Source: Gemmatimonas sp. (GTDB taxonomy: Bacteria; Gemmatimonadota; Gemmatimonadetes; Gemmatimonadales; Gemmatimonadaceae). Taken from it: DNA of 64,000 bases. The stretch lies in assembly GCA_023910675.1 (NCBI GenBank), contig JAAVWC010000009.1, positions 1 to 64,000 of the forward strand, in the 5' to 3' direction. Positions 4,685 through 10,735 of this stretch are shown here, one piece after another (position 1 is the first letter of the stretch; every line of letters begins with the position of its first letter). The notes below the pieces were generated by a model that made no database searches, was not told the origin of the DNA, and saw only the letters and a list, made by a program, of their open reading frames with translations. The position numbers and the translations under genes are program-made.

Positions 4685-7600
4685 GTGCCGTCCGCGCTGT
4701 TTTCCGCTCTCGCGCTTAGCCTGCTCATGCCGACACCACTCTCGTCCGCCGCCGGATTGGCCAACATGTACACGCCACGGGTCGATGGTCAGCCACTGCA
4801 CCATGTCACGATGGAGATGGCGACCGAGCGCACGGGCGAGGTGGAGTTCGCCGATACCGGCATCGTCCCGATCACGCTCAGAACGCTTGGCGACACGTGC
4901 ATCCTGATTGGTACGCAGCAGCTGACAATGCAGAGCGCGCTGCTCAGCATGCTCGTGCTGCGTCTGGCGTATTCGCCGCAGATGATGGTGCGTCGTGATC
5001 AACTCTTGCGCGAACTGTGGCCAGATCAGGAGGAGGTGCGTCAACGAGGCAATCTCCGGCAGGCGCTGTACAAGCTGCGCGGTATGGGCGTGCGCACGGC
5101 GATCCGCGGTGACATGGTGTGTCTGGATGAGGCGCAGCTGCAGCGAACGTTTGCGCTCACGCCCACAGTGGAGCTGTTCGAACGCGACGTCACGCGAGGC
5201 GCCGAACCGTACGGGTTGTTCCTTCCTGGCGTGACCGCCCCGACGCCGGAGTTGCGCGAGTGGCTCGATCAGACCCGCGAGGCGCTGCACGGGGATATCC
5301 GCCGTGTGCTCGCGGATGTGTTGCGTGCGCGACGCGAACGTGCGGATTGGAGTGGCATGCACGTCGTGGCGCGCTGGTTGCTGGAGATCGATCCGCTCAA
5401 CGAAGACGGTACGCTGGGATTGGCCGAGTGCGTCGCGATGACCGGATCGAAAGTGGAAGCGGTCGGCATTCTCGATCGCTATCTCGCGGAGGTGGGGACC
5501 AGCACCGGAGAGATCCGTCTTCCGGCGAGTGTGCTCCGCAAGCGTTTTGTGGAGCAGCCGGCGCGTCGGCGTTCGGTTGCCCTGGTGACGGACAAGCATT
5601 TCGTGGGGCGAGACACGGAGCGAAGTGAGCTGACGATGTCGTTGCGCCGCGCACGCTGGCATGACGGCAGCGCGGTGCTCGTGCACGGACCGCCGGGTAT
5701 TGGGAAGTCGCGCTTGATGAGCGAAGTGCTGAAGGTGGCGCAGCTGGAGGGATACCACGATGTGGTCGTCGAGAGCCGCGAGAGCATCTCGATCCGGCCG
5801 CTGGGAGCGCTCATCGAAGCGATTCCCCAGTTGCTGAGTGCGCCCGGGGCGATTGGGTGTGCGCCAGAGAGCCTCGTCGTGCTGCGCAAGCTGATCGGCC
5901 ATGAGGGCAAGGCGGACGCGGAACCGGAGGCGCCGGAAGCAGACGTGCTGGCGGCGGAGCTGTCGCCGGCGGAACGCATCGAACACGCCATGCGCACGAT
6001 GCGCGCGCAATCCATCCGGCATGCGGTCGTGGACCTGTTCGCTGCGGTTTCTGAAGAGCGCCCGATTTTTCTGTTGGCCGAGGATGTGCATTGGCTCGAC
6101 AACGATTCGTGGGAAGTACTTTCGGATGTGATCCAGCGGGTGAACGAGATGCGCGTGTACATCGTGCTGACGGGTCGTTTCAGCACGGTGAAGGAGGAGC
6201 GTCCGGCGCGGATTCCGGTGCCGCTCACCTTTCGGCGATTGGCCCCGATGGCCGAGGGGGCGTTGCTGGAGCTGATACGCCAGGTGGCCGACGAACACGG
6301 TGTCGAGGTACCGCCTGCCGTCGACACGTGGATCATCGGCGGGTGCGAAGGCAACCCGTTGATGTTGCGGGCGCTTCTGGAGCATTGGGTGGTGACCGGT
6401 CAGGCGGTCGGGGTGCCACCGATGTTGATGGCGCTCATCGATCACCGGATCGACCGCTTGAACGGTCACGCGCAGCGGGCGTTGCAGGCGATTGGCTTGC
6501 TGAATCGGTTCGCGTCGCTCGAGCGCGTCAAGTTGGTGTTGGAGTTGCCGGTTCACGAGTTGATTCACGCGATCGAGCAGCTCGAGCTCTCGGGATGTTT
6601 GAGCACGAGCCAGTCCTCACTGATCATCACCCACGACCTGGTGCGTCAGGTGGGAATGCGCCGGATGTCCCCGTTATTGGACGCGGCCCTGCGCGCGGCA
6701 ATTGGCGACACGCTTGAGGCGGAGTATGGGAGGACGGGGGATCTAATCGTGCTGAATGAAGCCCTTGTCAATACCGAATTCAGCGACCGTCCGGATGTTC
6801 TGAGCAGGTTTATCCGGAAGCACGAAGAAGCGCTAATTGAAGGCGGTCGGCCAAGCAACGTCTTGCGGGCAATCGAGACTCTGTCGGTAACGATGCCTGA
6901 GATTTTAGAGGAGAGACAGTTTGAGATTCTCCAGTCTCGACTTCATAACCAATCGGGGAAATACCGTCGCTCGCTGACGAATCATCTTGGAGCGCTAAAC
7001 ATCCCCCAAGACATACGAGGAGTTAGCGTGCCCGAAGTTGAGGAGTTGATCGCTATGATTGATGCAGGGTATCGGGCGGATCCACTCATTGATCGCGACG
7101 AGCTTGCTCGATGCGCCAGATTTATCGCTGGGCAGGCGCACCTACCTCTTAGCACACGCGTAAGGGCAGCCGAAGTTGGGCTCACAATCGCGGCGAACAC
7201 GTGTGATAGCACAATTGCAGCCATCTGTTACTCTACACTCAAGACGGAACTCTCAGGCGAAGGACTCGAGGAGAAGTCGCAAAAGCTGGGACTGCTCTAT
7301 CATGCAGTGTTCGGCGATCTGTCGATCGCTGAGAAAATCGCTGTAAACGTGCTGAAGCGAAGTAACCGTCGCGCTGCATCGACCGAAGTTGCTCTCGACG
7401 TTGGCCGAGCCGCCTTCGCGCTTCGACTTTGCGGCGACTTCGAAAATTCGATGACCGCGTTCAAGAAGCATTTTGAGATGTCGCGCGAACTCCAGACGCC
7501 GAGACTAGGCCTGTATTCAGCTTGGCAACTTGCGCAAATAGAACTTGAGCGTGGAAACAGGGATGAGGTAAGCGAGTGGAATCGAAAACTTGGTGAAATC

Positions 7601-8023
7601 CTCGAGGATGATGAGGATCCCATTTCATCAAGTTTTGTGCACGCGCACTTCTGTCGCTGCGCTATAGAAGATCGCAATAAATCGACGGCCTTGAAGTTCC
7701 TTTCTCTAGTAAAGGCAAATCAGCCAAAGCTCGCGCCTCCGAAGGCCTCGGCCTACGTGGTAGCTCTGGAACTCGGTGTTGAGCTGATTTCTGCCAGGTG
7801 GGCACCTAGCGAACCGATCATCGAAGCTGCCTTGGACAGACACCGGCGTACATCCAGATTCGGGACTTCTGATTACCTCACCGCTACAATCGCCGAATCG
7901 ATGGTACGGGCCGGCAAGAGTCAGCAAGCAAAAGTCTTCATTTCTACCTACGTTAGTAGCGAACGTCGCGAGAAAGCACCTCTGTCACGCGCTCTAGCCA
8001 ACGAAGTCAAGAAACTCGAGTAA
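4685..8023 (+). CDS. BTAD/SARP-type regulator with AAA ATPase and TPR-like C-terminus
   Basis: Large one-component regulator (1112 residues from the GTG at 4685; ATG 4766 or 4811 are alternative starts). Order of parts: a winged-helix DNA-binding region (about 65-150, with the R-GNLRQALYKLR motif of SARP proteins), a bacterial transcriptional activation (BTAD) helical region (about 155-290), an AAA ATPase with Walker A GPPGIGKS near 336-343 and LAEDVHWLD near 463-471, then a long helical TPR-like repeat region (about 680-1112). From roughly base 6720 the GC content and codon use drop sharply compared with the first 2 kb, as if the C-terminal half came from another source. It ends 2 bp from the convergent HD-GYP gene. 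Target and signal are unknown. Confidence 0.8.
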   Translation: MPSALFSALALSLLMPTPLSSAAGLANMYTPRVDGQPLHHVTMEMATERTGEVEFADTGIVPITLRTLGDTCILIGTQQLTMQSALLSMLVLRLAYSPQMMVRRDQLLRELWPDQEEVRQRGNLRQALYKLRGMGVRTAIRGDMVCLDEAQLQRTFALTPTVELFERDVTRGAEPYGLFLPGVTAPTPELREWLDQTREALHGDIRRVLADVLRARRERADWSGMHVVARWLLEIDPLNEDGTLGLAECVAMTGSKVEAVGILDRYLAEVGTSTGEIRLPASVLRKRFVEQPARRRSVALVTDKHFVGRDTERSELTMSLRRARWHDGSAVLVHGPPGIGKSRLMSEVLKVAQLEGYHDVVVESRESISIRPLGALIEAIPQLLSAPGAIGCAPESLVVLRKLIGHEGKADAEPEAPEADVLAAELSPAERIEHAMRTMRAQSIRHAVVDLFAAVSEERPIFLLAEDVHWLDNDSWEVLSDVIQRVNEMRVYIVLTGRFSTVKEERPARIPVPLTFRRLAPMAEGALLELIRQVADEHGVEVPPAVDTWIIGGCEGNPLMLRALLEHWVVTGQAVGVPPMLMALIDHRIDRLNGHAQRALQAIGLLNRFASLERVKLVLELPVHELIHAIEQLELSGCLSTSQSSLIITHDLVRQVGMRRMSPLLDAALRAAIGDTLEAEYGRTGDLIVLNEALVNTEFSDRPDVLSRFIRKHEEALIEGGRPSNVLRAIETLSVTMPEILEERQFEILQSRLHNQSGKYRRSLTNHLGALNIPQDIRGVSVPEVEELIAMIDAGYRADPLIDRDELARCARFIAGQAHLPLSTRVRAAEVGLTIAANTCDSTIAAICYSTLKTELSGEGLEEKSQKLGLLYHAVFGDLSIAEKIAVNVLKRSNRRAASTEVALDVGRAAFALRLCGDFENSMTAFKKHFEMSRELQTPRLGLYSAWQLAQIELERGNRDEVSEWNRKLGEILEDDEDPISSSFVHAHFCRCAIEDRNKSTALKFLSLVKANQPKLAPPKASAYVVALELGVELISARWAPSEPIIEAALDRHRRTSRFGTSDYLTATIAESMVRAGKSQQAKVFISTYVSSERREKAPLSRALANEVKKLE

Positions 8024-8025
8024 CC

Positions 8026-9357
8026 CTAAGCGACGGCAGGGGTCTTAACTCGCTTACGTACTAACTCAAGTATCTGAGTGAGGGAATGAACCCTGCCGTT
8101 GTCAGCTGAGTTGAACAGACGATTGAACTCAGTAGATGACAGAAGAGCGTCGCAAATTTGAGGGTCAAACTGAATTCCTCGGAATTTGACCAACTCAGCA
8201 CGCACTTCCACTTCACCGAGTGCCTTTCGGTACGGCCGATCTGTTGTCATTGCGTCAATGGTGTCCGCGAACATGATGATTCGGGAGCCGAGCGGGATAT
8301 CCTTTCCCTTAAGCTGATCAGGATATCCGCTCCCGTCCCAATTCTCATGGTGATGTCGAACGGCAGGTACAATGTCCTGTAGTTCAGAGATCTTTGCTAC
8401 CAGCTCCGCGCTCTTGATGGGATGCAGTTCCATGATGGCTCGTTCTTCCGAAGTGAGCCGACCTGGCTTCATGAGAATTGGAGCAAATATCTCATGGATT
8501 TTTCCGACATCGTGTAACAAGGCGGCTTTCGAAACCATTTCGATTTCCTTCGCCGATAGTCCGACGACTTCAGCAATAATCCTCGAGAAGCGACGAACGC
8601 GCTGCGAGTGACCTGAAGTGTACGGGTCGCGAAACTCGACCGTTTGAACGAATAGCCCTAGAAGCTCTTTATTTGTCGTCTCAAGCTGGTGCTTAGACTG
8701 GTACATGTTTCGCATGCCCCATACAAGGGCGCAAAGCACACCGACGCCCCAAACGTCCCAATCCACGTACGCACGAGCGAACCCATATACTGCGGCGATG
8801 GAAAAGATATCATAAGCAATGCCTGCCACATTGCCTTCGTACCAAAGGCGCAAGATGCTTTTGCTCTCAGCGATGCCGATTGCGACAGCGACGGCAAGCG
8901 TGTTGATCAGCAGAAAAACCACGACCGCACTGATGTGCGGCAGACCATGGAAGGCTGGATCAACTTGAAGTGCTTTCCCGCCTAGACAAAGATAAACCAC
9001 AATCGATGACGCACCGGCAAGCACAGTTTGACCAACGTTAAAAATGCGTTTCAACGCCGGCTTGGGCTTCATTAACTCCGAGAGAAGCGAGCCTGCACCC
9101 ACCAAAGCAACAGTCGACCAAGAAGGGTAGAGGACAAACGCTGATAAATAGGGCACAAATGAAACAGTGCCGAATGTGCTTCCCTGGACACGGTAACGAA
9201 TAACCGTTCCTACAAAGGCGACGCCGACAAGCCAAGCTGCGCCGCCAAGCAATTCAGGGTTTACCGACGGTCCCAATAGGTACAAGCCAACAAGCGCGCC
9301 CGCCGAAGCGAGCACGATCGCATGCACATACGCGACGACGCTTGTTTTCATGGTCAT
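8026..9357 (-). CDS. Membrane-bound HD-GYP phosphodiesterase
   Basis: Likely degrades cyclic-di-GMP or a related nucleotide. Residues 1-215 form about eight membrane segments (a sensor-like or MASE-type region); residues 228-443 are an HD-GYP domain with H-D at 282-283 (ALLHDVGKI), HHENWDGSGYP at 336-346 and the DTIDAMTTDRPYR motif at 365-377. All expected metal ligands are present by eye. Base composition is lower in GC than the window average and matches the 3' half of the convergent regulator. Start ATG 9357 (or 9351) has no strong ribosome site; a short ORF with a perfect one lies 34 bp upstream, so coupling is possible. Confidence 0.85.
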   Translation of the reverse strand: MTMKTSVVAYVHAIVLASAGALVGLYLLGPSVNPELLGGAAWLVGVAFVGTVIRYRVQGSTFGTVSFVPYLSAFVLYPSWSTVALVGAGSLLSELMKPKPALKRIFNVGQTVLAGASSIVVYLCLGGKALQVDPAFHGLPHISAVVVFLLINTLAVAVAIGIAESKSILRLWYEGNVAGIAYDIFSIAAVYGFARAYVDWDVWGVGVLCALVWGMRNMYQSKHQLETTNKELLGLFVQTVEFRDPYTSGHSQRVRRFSRIIAEVVGLSAKEIEMVSKAALLHDVGKIHEIFAPILMKPGRLTSEERAIMELHPIKSAELVAKISELQDIVPAVRHHHENWDGSGYPDQLKGKDIPLGSRIIMFADTIDAMTTDRPYRKALGEVEVRAELVKFRGIQFDPQICDALLSSTEFNRLFNSADNGRVHSLTQILELVRKRVKTPAVA

Positions 9358-9391
9358 AGGAATTTGACCCCGCCAGACGTCTTACTTTAGG

Positions 9392-9463
9392 TCAACCCCA
9401 AAGCTTCATATCGGCCAGAACTACCGACCAAAGCGCATTCACGAGCTGGGCCAAGAATTCCAT
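9392..9463 (-). CDS. Short ORF (23 aa) with perfect Shine-Dalgarno sequence
   Basis: Not a recognised gene. The minus strand reads GGAGGTGA, a full match to the 16S anti-SD sequence, then 6 bases, then ATG. The peptide begins MEFLAQLVNALWSVVLADM and ends KLWG. It is hydrophobic with two Trp and two acidic residues and could form one amphipathic or membrane helix. It sits 34 bp before the HD-GYP gene on the same strand. Possibilities: a leader peptide coupling translation, a small membrane protein, or a signalling peptide for the nearby TPR-containing regulator. Function is not known. Confidence 0.5.
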   Translation of the reverse strand: MEFLAQLVNALWSVVLADMKLWG

Positions 9464-9634
9464 GAAACGTCACCTCCCATACGGTCAGTCACGCGTGTCC
9501 CGCTCGGGACGCCACGTGCTTGGACTAGGTTGGCTCCGCTCGTACTACTGGCCTGCCCGCTCAGCTCCGCTCTAGACGGCTGACGGGGACGTTGGGGGTA
9601 TCGTCGTGTCGATGACGAAAGGGGTAAAGGGCGA
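9464..9634. other. Non-coding leader region with hairpin
   Basis: No gene seen. On the minus strand, upstream of the short ORF, GTCCC and GGGAC form a 5-bp stem around GAGC (about 9500-9513). This, together with the strong ribosome site, makes the stretch a likely 5' leader for the short ORF and HD-GYP gene. No clear sigma-70 promoter could be fixed. Confidence 0.3.
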
Positions 9635-9650
9635 ACACGGGGTCCCGTGT
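9635..9650 (-). terminator. Possible terminator after the hypothetical gene
   Basis: ACACGGG and CCCGTGT arms with a very short loop, followed on the minus strand by two short T-runs (CCCTTTACCCCTTTC). It lies just 5 bp past the end of the minus-strand gene at 9656. Confidence 0.4.
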
Positions 9651-9655
9651 CCTAG

Positions 9656-10573
9656 TTATCGCTCCAGGTGCACCCACCGGTTGGTCGCGTCGAGCACCGA
9701 CAACACGGCGCTCGTTTCCGCGCTCTCCCGGACTTCACAGCTCCCGGTCAAACAGACTGGCTCGCGACCCACGCGCGCCGAGACGCTTACGAACACGAAC
9801 TCGCGGTCGAAGGCGTCCACCAGCTTGGCCCCCTCTAACGCAAGGCTGCGCTCTCCACCCGGCGTGCTCTTCATCGCCGAGCTGATTGCCTGCAACGTGG
9901 CCCGCGCGGCCAGCTCGACGCGCGATCGCTCCGTCTCCTGCCCTTCCGCTTCCCCAAAGACCTCCTGCCCGTCTCGCGACAACGTCACCCGGCACAACAC
10001 ACCGCGCGACCGGGACCGACGCACCTCGACATCCTCGAAAATCAGCAACCGACGCCCAGCCGCCACGTCAGGCAGGGTCGCCGAAGAGATAGACGACCGA
10101 GTGCGCGCGGGGGCACTGACCTCCTCCATCGTGACAGGTCGCGCCACCGGCGGAACCCCCGGGGGGACCGGCGCCGTGTAGCCACCGGCAAACGACCCCG
10201 TAAAGGCCGGTGCCGGTGGCCCTGACGTGGGCGTGGCCACCCCACCCGAAACGGCGCTCAAACCAGACACGACCGTGGCCTCGGCAGGCGTGTCCATGAC
10301 CCGCGGCACGTCGAGCGTGGTGGCAATGGAGATCTTGCGGTGGTTGACCCGCAGCCCGAGGTGCGCCACGAGGGCACTCTCGATGTTCCGCACCGTGTTC
10401 TTGGGCAGGACCTGGTCGGTCGTCAACACATGGATTTCGTCGACCCCGCCCATCTCACTAGGGACAATACGCACGGAAATCACGCCGGGAAGCGTGGCGA
10501 TCAGTTCCTCGGCGCGGCGGATGGGTAGGACACTACCGGCGATACTGCCTGAGGCAGGTGACGGGATGGTCAT
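9656..10573 (-). CDS. Hypothetical protein with two small alpha/beta domains
   Basis: Not recognised. From ATG 10573 the protein is 305 residues; a TTG start at 10684 would add 37. Residues about 15-90 form an alpha/beta unit (LPGVISVRIVPSEMGGVDEI, then KNTVRNIESALVAHLGLRVN-RKISIA) resembling small domains found in many hypothetical proteins. A Pro/Ala/Gly-rich linker follows, then a region about 175-250 (VLCRVTLSRDGQEVFGEAEG) and a C-terminal half with VELAARATLQAI. No signal peptide or membrane segment. It is followed by a terminator-like hairpin and preceded by the sigma-54 activator on the same strand. Confidence 0.65.
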   Translation of the reverse strand: MTIPSPASGSIAGSVLPIRRAEELIATLPGVISVRIVPSEMGGVDEIHVLTTDQVLPKNTVRNIESALVAHLGLRVNHRKISIATTLDVPRVMDTPAEATVVSGLSAVSGGVATPTSGPPAPAFTGSFAGGYTAPVPPGVPPVARPVTMEEVSAPARTRSSISSATLPDVAAGRRLLIFEDVEVRRSRSRGVLCRVTLSRDGQEVFGEAEGQETERSRVELAARATLQAISSAMKSTPGGERSLALEGAKLVDAFDREFVFVSVSARVGREPVCLTGSCEVRESAETSAVLSVLDATNRWVHLER

Positions 10574-10735
10574 ACCAATGTTGGCGGGAATGGACAGATC
10601 AGGCTCCGAAGCATGGGCCAACGGCGTGGAAGGGTCCGCTTGTCTTATCGGAGCGAATATGTGACCAAAGCCGCTTTGCGGCAAGGCTCAAAATCGCCCA
10701 ACGTCTTGTCCCGCATGAAGGTAAGGCTCCAGGCC

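Follow-up and report, generated by a model that had tools for sequence, protein, structure and literature searches.

In the ComR/ComS (XIP) and Rgg/SHP systems of streptococci, the signal precursor has a hydrophobic N-terminal part and an active C-terminal end, which is rich in tryptophan (Trp) in XIP, and the receptor is of TPR type. The receptor of RRNPP systems is a short HTH-TPR protein with an adjoining peptide gene. Here we describe a locus from the diderm phylum Gemmatimonadota, located in the first 10 kb of a 64,000-nucleotide stretch of Gemmatimonas sp. (assembly GCA_023910675.1, contig JAAVWC010000009.1, positions 1 to 64,000; the whole stretch is called the window). It contains a structured RNA leader, a 23-codon gene for a Trp-ended peptide, a gene for a membrane HD-GYP protein and, convergent with the latter, a gene for a STAND-type regulator. 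The peptide precursor is similar in length to the streptococcal ones. However, the regulator is a 1070-residue STAND ATPase and not a short HTH-TPR protein, and the peptide gene lies beyond the membrane HD-GYP gene, which stands between the two.

A further point of comparison is comQXPA of Bacillus. Two papers (PMC4008528, PMC4408185) describe it as polymorphic, with pherotype groups that are functional and comQ clusters that have 65-70% of their nucleotides in common. Our locus resembles it in having a short peptide gene beside a candidate membrane receptor gene, within a polymorphic block. The block differs in having neither a ComQ-like modifying enzyme nor a histidine kinase: between its breakpoints there are only the peptide, the HD-GYP gene and one half of the regulator, with nothing of the modifying or processing enzyme and histidine kinase that mark comQXPA and agr. 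The membrane protein is instead a predicted phosphodiesterase of cyclic di-GMP (c-di-GMP), and the peptide is Trp-ended, with an open reading frame (ORF) that follows a structured RNA. The best-ranked open-licence matches of a literature search contained nothing on this locus and no peptide signalling system of Gemmatimonadota.

We lean, if only slightly, towards reading the locus as a peptide-signalling cassette, in which the Trp-ended peptide would be the signal, the membrane half of the HD-GYP protein its main receptor, and the helical half of the STAND regulator the relay to genes. The peptide probably acts as a signal between cells, one that differs from lineage to lineage along with its receptors. 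A broader proposal is more tentative, and we place it somewhat below an even chance: a new kind of quorum sensing in a diderm phylum, with a Trp-ended micropeptide made from an undescribed RNA and sensed by a polytopic c-di-GMP phosphodiesterase plus a STAND regulator, whose groups would change by swapping the peptide tip and both sensors at breakpoints inside the peptide ORF and the regulator. The genes concerned are the following (GC, guanine plus cytosine; E, expectation value; lnL, log-likelihood).

9392-9463, minus strand: 23-codon peptide gene MEFLAQLVNALWSVVLADMKLWG, a conserved ORF with a strong ribosome site in relatives
8026-9357, minus strand: membrane HD-GYP protein with HD and GYP motifs (HD_5, E 8e-34)
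9357-8689, minus strand: its MASE9-like N-terminal half, about seven helices in a predicted model
8688-8029, minus strand: its HD-GYP domain, with the HD and GYP motifs
4811-8023, plus strand: STAND-type regulator, with a winged-helix and BTAD-like front, an AAA_16 ATPase and a helical C-terminal half
6740-8023, plus strand: low-GC sensor half of the regulator, part of the putative exchanged block (GC change point; flank tree rejected by 413 lnL)

A total of 149 relatives were searched with the regulator and with the HD-GYP protein. We fetched 80 loci, picked by an HD-GYP match or, within the genus, by a regulator match, and 20 further loci from other families of the class (one of them, L193, from family f2). 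Trees of allele exchange were based on 18 loci of the genus, and GC comparisons on 21.

In Gemmatimonas and its relatives the peptide has 14-28 residues and a hydrophobic N-terminal part. The first-pass annotation had seen in the short ORF a possible signal peptide, and it does look like a signal-type peptide gene; its ribosome site in the window is GGGAGGTGACG. A peptide was called in 72 of 81 loci (the 80 and the window). Six of the nine uncalled loci (L068, L080, L097, L127, L134, L135) have the HD-GYP gene at a contig end, and in the other three (L125, L128, L138) another filter found a peptide, Trp-ended in each case. The peptide is therefore present in all 75 readable loci, and 72 of these have a Trp within the last two residues (69 of the called peptides and the three found otherwise). 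The last residue itself varies (G 31, W 11, T 8, N 5 and others, among 72). A Trp attenuation leader has a run of Trp codons before a biosynthetic gene; here a Trp codon stands at or beside the stop, sometimes with further ones dispersed, and the gene that follows encodes the HD-GYP protein.

As a control, short ORF starts with a strong ribosome site were counted in 942,810 bases of the 80 relatives. There are 61 just upstream of HD-GYP, 59 of them with Trp in the last two residues, against three elsewhere in the same bases on both strands, none of which is Trp-ended. With nested starts merged, 59 ORFs remain in 58 loci, 57 with Trp. The short ORFs upstream of HD-GYP are not a product of chance. 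For the 20 further loci, the filter required a ribosome site plus either a Trp near the end or a stronger site; a peptide was read in 17, of which 14 are Trp-ended. No peptide ORF was found by it in L187 and L190, whose HD-GYPs are distant, and L193 ends ahead of HD-GYP.

The peptide ORF is surrounded by a structured RNA, which the first-pass annotation missed. About 130 nucleotides (nt) ahead of the start codon are conserved, and the elements in the window are these.

9461-9594, minus strand: structured and conserved RNA leader, with its 3' end at the start codon of the peptide (covariance model, E 6.5e-30)
9574-9588, minus strand: 5' arm of the long-range helix P1, CCCCGTCAGCCGTCT, pairing with 9368-9382 at 14 of 15 positions including one G-U
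9368-9382, minus strand: 3' arm of P1, AGACGTCTGGCGGGG, its G-run being the likely ribosome site of HD-GYP
9528-9539, minus strand: 5' strand of P3, GCGGAGCCAACC, predicted to cover the ribosome site of the peptide
9467-9478, minus strand: 3' strand of P3, GGGAGGTGACGT, which is the ribosome site of the peptide
9487-9520, minus strand: P4 hairpin between the P3 strands, with compensatory changes in a comparison of 34 sequences

Folding all 67 leaders together yielded no structure, owing to their poor joint alignment. The structure used here was derived by RNAalifold from an alignment of 34 leaders (A1), on which it was also scored; its pairs form in 90.1% of cells. Its covariation score, of a kind that kinship among the leaders inflates, is 0.235 against 0.123 for shuffled data, with none of 500 shuffles reaching it and at most 0.067 for a slid structure; for further pair types, six of 500 shuffles reach the A1 value. 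P3 is paired in 98.2% of cells and hardly varies, so its support is conservation and not covariation, and P4 has both-sided changes in 8 of 10 pairs.

A covariance model built from A1 (the window leader is one of its 34 sequences, and 33 of the 80 fetched loci are in it) finds one clear copy in this genome, the next match having E 0.8. It matches once each in 67 of the 80 fetched loci, and in 91 of 295 genomes of the class, none of which has more than two matches at E <= 0.01. With a limit of E 0.05, the model matched 14 of the 20 further loci and gave a stray match in L183. A dispersed riboswitch is not supported by these copy numbers. Rfam gave no gathering match in the window, and for 9300-9750 only a chance match on the other strand (E 4.2).

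The 3' arm of P1 lies 9 nt past the peptide stop codon and 10 nt ahead of the HD-GYP ATG. An ungapped test puts P1 above every one of 60 shuffles in 42 of 67 loci, with a median z of 3.8; arm sequences are quite different between lineages, and in 36 of 67 the own 3' arm ranks in the top 5% when compared with the arms of other lineages. Among the 51 loci with a strong P1, the 3' arm begins a median of 7 nt past the stop codon. By eye, P1 also pairs in loci of families f4 and f7, for example at 15 positions in L191. Sequence comparison thus shows predicted helices, conserved and covarying, that flank and enclose the peptide ORF and would cover both ribosome sites.

Two other candidates did not hold. 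A pairing seen by eye between the leader and the beginning of the peptide ORF has a median z of 0.05 and is above all shuffles in none of 67 loci. GAGCGG direct repeats, taken as a binding site of the regulator, belong to the RNA leader, and their spacing varies. Among known RNAs, RNAIII/hld and hok-type mRNAs are similar in combining a structured RNA, long-range pairing and a very short hydrophobic ORF; the RNA described here differs in being a usually single-copy locus that feeds an HD-GYP gene.

Next to the conserved leader there is a block of alleles with a different history. The flanking genes and the front half of the regulator share a common history (distance correlations 0.68-0.79). 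Correlations with the flanks are 0.33-0.48 for the C-terminal half of the regulator (C-half), which is very divergent (mean distance 0.68), and 0.42-0.48 for HD-GYP. For C-half data the tree of the flanks falls short by 413 lnL units, that of the front half by 385 and that of HD-GYP by 51; for HD-GYP data the shortfalls are 239 (flanks), 187 (front half) and 42 (C-half). All these trees are rejected with p below 0.001 in the approximately unbiased (AU) test, and those with differences of 51 and 42 are not rejected by the Shimodaira-Hasegawa (SH) test (0.15 and 0.17). For front-half data the flank tree is rejected at a shortfall of 56 units (p-AU 0.002, p-SH 0.30), and each cassette tree at one of over 1000. 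The C-half and HD-GYP trees resemble each other and are not identical.

The block is visible in close pairs of species. In the upstream gene and leader, nucleotide identity is 0.85-0.98 for L065/L067 and 0.85-1.00 for L073/L074, except for a variable stretch near 10160-10240 in the latter (0.67-0.75). In both pairs the sensor half of the regulator has only 0.35-0.66, and within HD-GYP the membrane half has 0.53-0.70 and the HD half 0.75-0.84; identity recovers to 0.85-0.97 near 6340 (L065/L067) and to 0.79-0.91 near 5890 (L073/L074). Six genus pairs have an upstream gene at least 0.80 identical. Five of them combine leaders of 0.94-1.00 identity with a membrane half of 0.56-0.61 and a C-half of 0.38-0.55; the sixth, the window and L064, has a common allele (membrane half 0.69, C-half 0.75). 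By these comparisons, one putative breakpoint falls within the regulator gene and the second at the peptide ORF.

Within the peptide ORF, the DNA of L073 and L074 is identical through codon 11 and different from codon 12, where L074 equals L072. For peptide sites 1-12 the flank tree needs 30 changes against 37, and for sites 13-23 the cassette trees need 41-42 against 45. L066, from the sister of the window species, and L067 have the ending KTWG in common. Outside the genus, the leaders of L094, L099 and L101 (group g7) are 0.99-1.00 identical and their membrane-half DNA 0.54-0.74. The peptides of the three are alike except in the last five residues and in no more than one further residue. The peptides of L191 and L192 (f7) are identical to residue 20, and protein identity is 0.40-0.72 in the HD-GYP membrane half, 0.80-1.00 in the HD half and 0.78-0.95 in the regulator C-half. 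The smallest exchanged unit thus appears in this pair to be the peptide tip plus the membrane half, and the membrane domain is therefore proposed as main receptor.

Of 13 compared pairs, L091/L092, L123/L124 and L140/L143 have the same last five residues and membrane-half DNA of 0.69-0.79; in the ten with different last five residues it is 0.45-0.74. Peptide distances in the genus correlate with those of HD-GYP (r 0.63). At the level of sequence, these results show a history unlike that of the flanks for HD-GYP and, in Gemmatimonas, for the sensor half, and a difference in the C-terminal part of the peptide between sister species with the same leader.

As for the gene set, the first-pass annotation proposed a search for the trio elsewhere, and the regulator, convergent HD-GYP and short ORF do recur in related families. 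The regulator has a match in 70 of the 80 loci, some of the other ten being cut by contig ends, and it is convergent with and adjoining HD-GYP in 68 of the 70; in L081 and L100 the genes are convergent with a gap. Eight of the 20 further loci have a regulator match, convergent and adjacent in all eight. These searches show that the predicted RNA, the peptide and HD-GYP occur as a set in several families of the class, with the regulator convergent in most f1 and f2 loci.

Some loci deviate from this arrangement. In L081 (genome G007), two minus-strand ORFs of 255 and 546 amino acids lie between HD-GYP and the regulator (L081:8260-10670), and look by eye like an IS21-type istB/istA pair. In L082 (G009, L082:3420-10020) two long regulators stand in tandem beside a single HD-GYP. 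One genome holds two RNA/HD-GYP/regulator loci (G085:C75 and G085:C156), the second regulator being cut by a contig end. L091 and L092 (G044, G071) have RNA, peptide and HD-GYP with the regulator unmatched, and their identical peptides end in IWW.

Regarding the membrane protein, Pfam HD_5 and HD both match it in the window, and HD_5 is found in 46 of 46 homologues. Nine residues (H282, D283, H312, H336, H337, G344, Y345, P346 and D365) are invariant in 46 HD-GYP sequences; stricter text patterns missed the HD stretch in 11 of 46 and the GYP stretch in 2 of 46. In the predicted model, the HD half resembles PDB 9rbz and 4mcw. The protein is predicted to be a c-di-GMP phosphodiesterase from its HD_5/HD domain and motifs. 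MASE9 matches 34 of 46 homologues at E <= 0.01 (best 1.2e-11), and in the window protein scores 21.1 bits, under the cut-off of 24.3; in PDB matches of the model the front half has a weak likeness to ECF S-components (E about 0.1). The domain order is that of MASE9-HD-GYP proteins, with the difference that here the domain varies along with the tip of a neighbouring peptide. We know of no ligand of MASE9. A search for a second copy of the membrane half found no match elsewhere in this genome.

The open frame of the regulator starts at 4685; its likely start is 4811, because the alignments of most homologues set in at about residue 60 of the longer frame. AAA_16 is found in the window protein (E 2e-19) and in 32 of 32 regulator members. 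Of the 32, four have BTAD and three Trans_reg_C; the window protein has neither, and its sole Pfam TPR match (TPR_19) is in the BTAD-like region. An AlphaFold model from 32 sequences (mean pLDDT, the predicted local distance difference test, 86; pTM, the predicted template modelling score, 0.60) begins with a winged-helix-like part, followed by a helical BTAD-like region, then by the ATPase and finally by a long run of C-terminal helices. This C-half is modelled as an all-helical solenoid, with block pLDDT mostly 89-97. PDB matches of the model, with low TM-scores, are 6mfv (a STAND protein with TPR; rank 1, E 9.7e-11), 2qen and 8bob (maltose system). The regulator has the STAND/AAA ATPase core and, in the model, the helical repeat of STAND regulators with a TPR sensor, and is like MalT and the PH0952-like 6mfv in joining an ATPase core to a C-terminal helical solenoid; it differs in that its sensor half belongs to a putative exchanged allele block. 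Other matches to it in this genome are partial only.

A possible course of events for the proposed cassette is as follows. The folded RNA would keep both ribosome sites covered, with both genes translated little. Opening of P3, by a trigger such as a ligand, a protein or temperature, would let ribosomes read the peptide. Ribosomes at the stop codon, a median of 7 nt before the P1 3' arm, would then loosen P1 and allow HD-GYP to be translated. The hydrophobic N-terminal part may place the peptide in the membrane, and its C-terminal residues (MKLWG in the window), free or released, may be read by the MASE9-like domain. This recognition would alter c-di-GMP hydrolysis, and the STAND regulator, responding to the peptide or to HD-GYP, would pass the message to genes. 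A joint swap of signal and sensors could then found a new signalling group, as in Bacillus pherotypes. If this is true, a peptide signal would be wired directly to c-di-GMP turnover, MASE9-like domains would gain a candidate ligand class, and a new RNA family would gate a micropeptide. The alleles would also be a natural set of signals and receptors for mapping specificity. The system can be tested in G. aurantiaca and G. phototrophica, which are cultured and belong to the genus of the window; the HD-GYP gene is on record for both.

Several results weigh against signalling by this cassette. Trp is lacking near the peptide end in L112, L114 and L126 (3 of 75 loci) and in 3 of 17 in f4 and f7, and the regulator has no match in 10 of 80 loci and in 12 of 20 in f4 and f7. 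As to the RNA, A1 pairs with double changes are not above shuffles (128 of 500). P1 is not above shuffles in 25 of 67 loci, and the own 3' arm is the best against those of other lineages in only 20 of 67. An earlier gapped test of duplex energy, after which the ungapped one was designed, was uninformative for P1: the cognate arm was best in 5 of 67 loci, and energy was below all shuffles in 11 of 67 (median z -1.3).

The exchange of alleles has its own contrary points. C-half distances are nearer to the front half (0.62) than to HD-GYP (0.47), and C-half and HD-GYP are apparently not always exchanged together, because by the AU test the data of each reject the tree of the other. With all 23 sites of the peptide taken together, 75 changes suffice on the trees of flanks and front half, against 78-79 on the others. 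In L106/L110 the tips differ in one residue only, and the membrane half is still 0.55-0.56. Peptide distances in the genus fit the non-exchanged upstream gene equally well (r 0.65), show no closer link to the membrane half than to the HD half (partial r -0.01) and follow the regulator C-half weakly (r 0.37). No recent transfer was caught, because no cassette is more alike between species than its flanks.

The enclosing RNA, moreover, is also compatible with a purely cis-acting leader peptide, of the arrest or coupling kind. Translation alone, perhaps with stalling at the terminal Trp codon, would open P1 for HD-GYP, and the peptide would have no later role. The position of the ORF within a structured RNA, the long-range arm shortly past the stop codon in 51 loci, the cover on the ribosome sites of both ORFs and the Trp codon at or beside the stop all agree with it. 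The freely varying last residue is odd for an arrest motif, however, and tips vary with the membrane half between sister species whose leaders are 0.94-1.00 identical. We regard this explanation as unlikely, although it is the strongest of the alternatives.

Less probable again is an intracellular small membrane subunit, a micropeptide regulator that tunes the membrane domain of HD-GYP, with co-variation reflecting an internal contact. Such a subunit would fit the same strand and order of the genes, the hydrophobic 14-28 residues, the tip that varies with the membrane half, and the persistence of RNA, peptide and HD-GYP where the regulator has no match (L091, L092). On the other hand, repeated replacement of whole alleles between sister species would be unusual for an internal subunit, and within the genus the variable block usually takes in the regulator's sensor half.

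A toxin/immunity or bacteriocin-type polymorphism, in which the peptide harms neighbours and the membrane protein protects, appears very improbable. It would account for the hypervariable allele block, and a short hydrophobic peptide with a covered ribosome site recalls type I toxins; yet the catalytic half of HD-GYP is conserved, with its motifs, inside the variable block, and the locus has a single place in most searched genus genomes, unlike mobile toxin loci.

The composition of the window bears on the remaining alternative. The first-pass annotation described a low-GC patch from about 6720 to 9460, starting inside one open gene and running on through HD-GYP and the short ORF. The patch is sharp and real, and the quoted base counts are exact (29 of 60 G or C at 7501-7560, 37 of 60 at 5401-5460). 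The best single change points are 6740 (0.64 to 0.53, inside the regulator gene) and 9481, where GC recovers. GC is 0.643 at 4685-6720 and 0.530 at 6721-8023; the HD-GYP gene has 0.519, the short ORF 0.514, the flanks 0.64-0.66 and the leader and next gene 0.65-0.66. Third-position GC of the regulator is 0.79 ahead of the boundary and 0.55 after it. With 0.524, the dip is the minimum of 2740-bp segments in the window (mean 0.644, standard deviation 0.026), and the next-lowest elsewhere has 0.615. The change lies about where the predicted model enters the C-terminal helical solenoid, base 6720 corresponding to about residue 636 of 1070.

In each of the 21 genus loci, the sensor half is 0.04-0.13 lower in GC than the front half, and the low-GC regulator half is therefore not a private event. 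HD-GYP GC is also low in the genus loci, except L081, where the measured stretch is the insertion. A single recent horizontal acquisition, leaving a chimeric regulator in this genome only, would explain the sharp change within one gene and is hardly tenable, being contradicted by the 21 loci and by the same genes standing together in relatives. Of the modular replacement first suggested for the sensor half, the module (sensor half, HD-GYP and the variable part of the peptide) and the breakpoint inside the regulator stand. The one-off chimera falls, given that replacement recurs between species, and so does the newly acquired enzyme, the trio being found together in the genus, the family, f2 and, with the regulator matched less often, further families of the class. 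The same GC shift without HD-GYP was not seen among these loci, which were chosen by an HD-GYP or regulator match. The genus alleles (6740-9481 in the window) keep a lower GC than their flanks and own genomes.

Finally, the gene upstream of the leader (9656-10684, minus strand) has no Pfam match and is matched by tblastn in 68 of the 80 loci. It follows the species tree and stays beside the RNA leader, and in several loci its product ends, by eye, in ATNRW.

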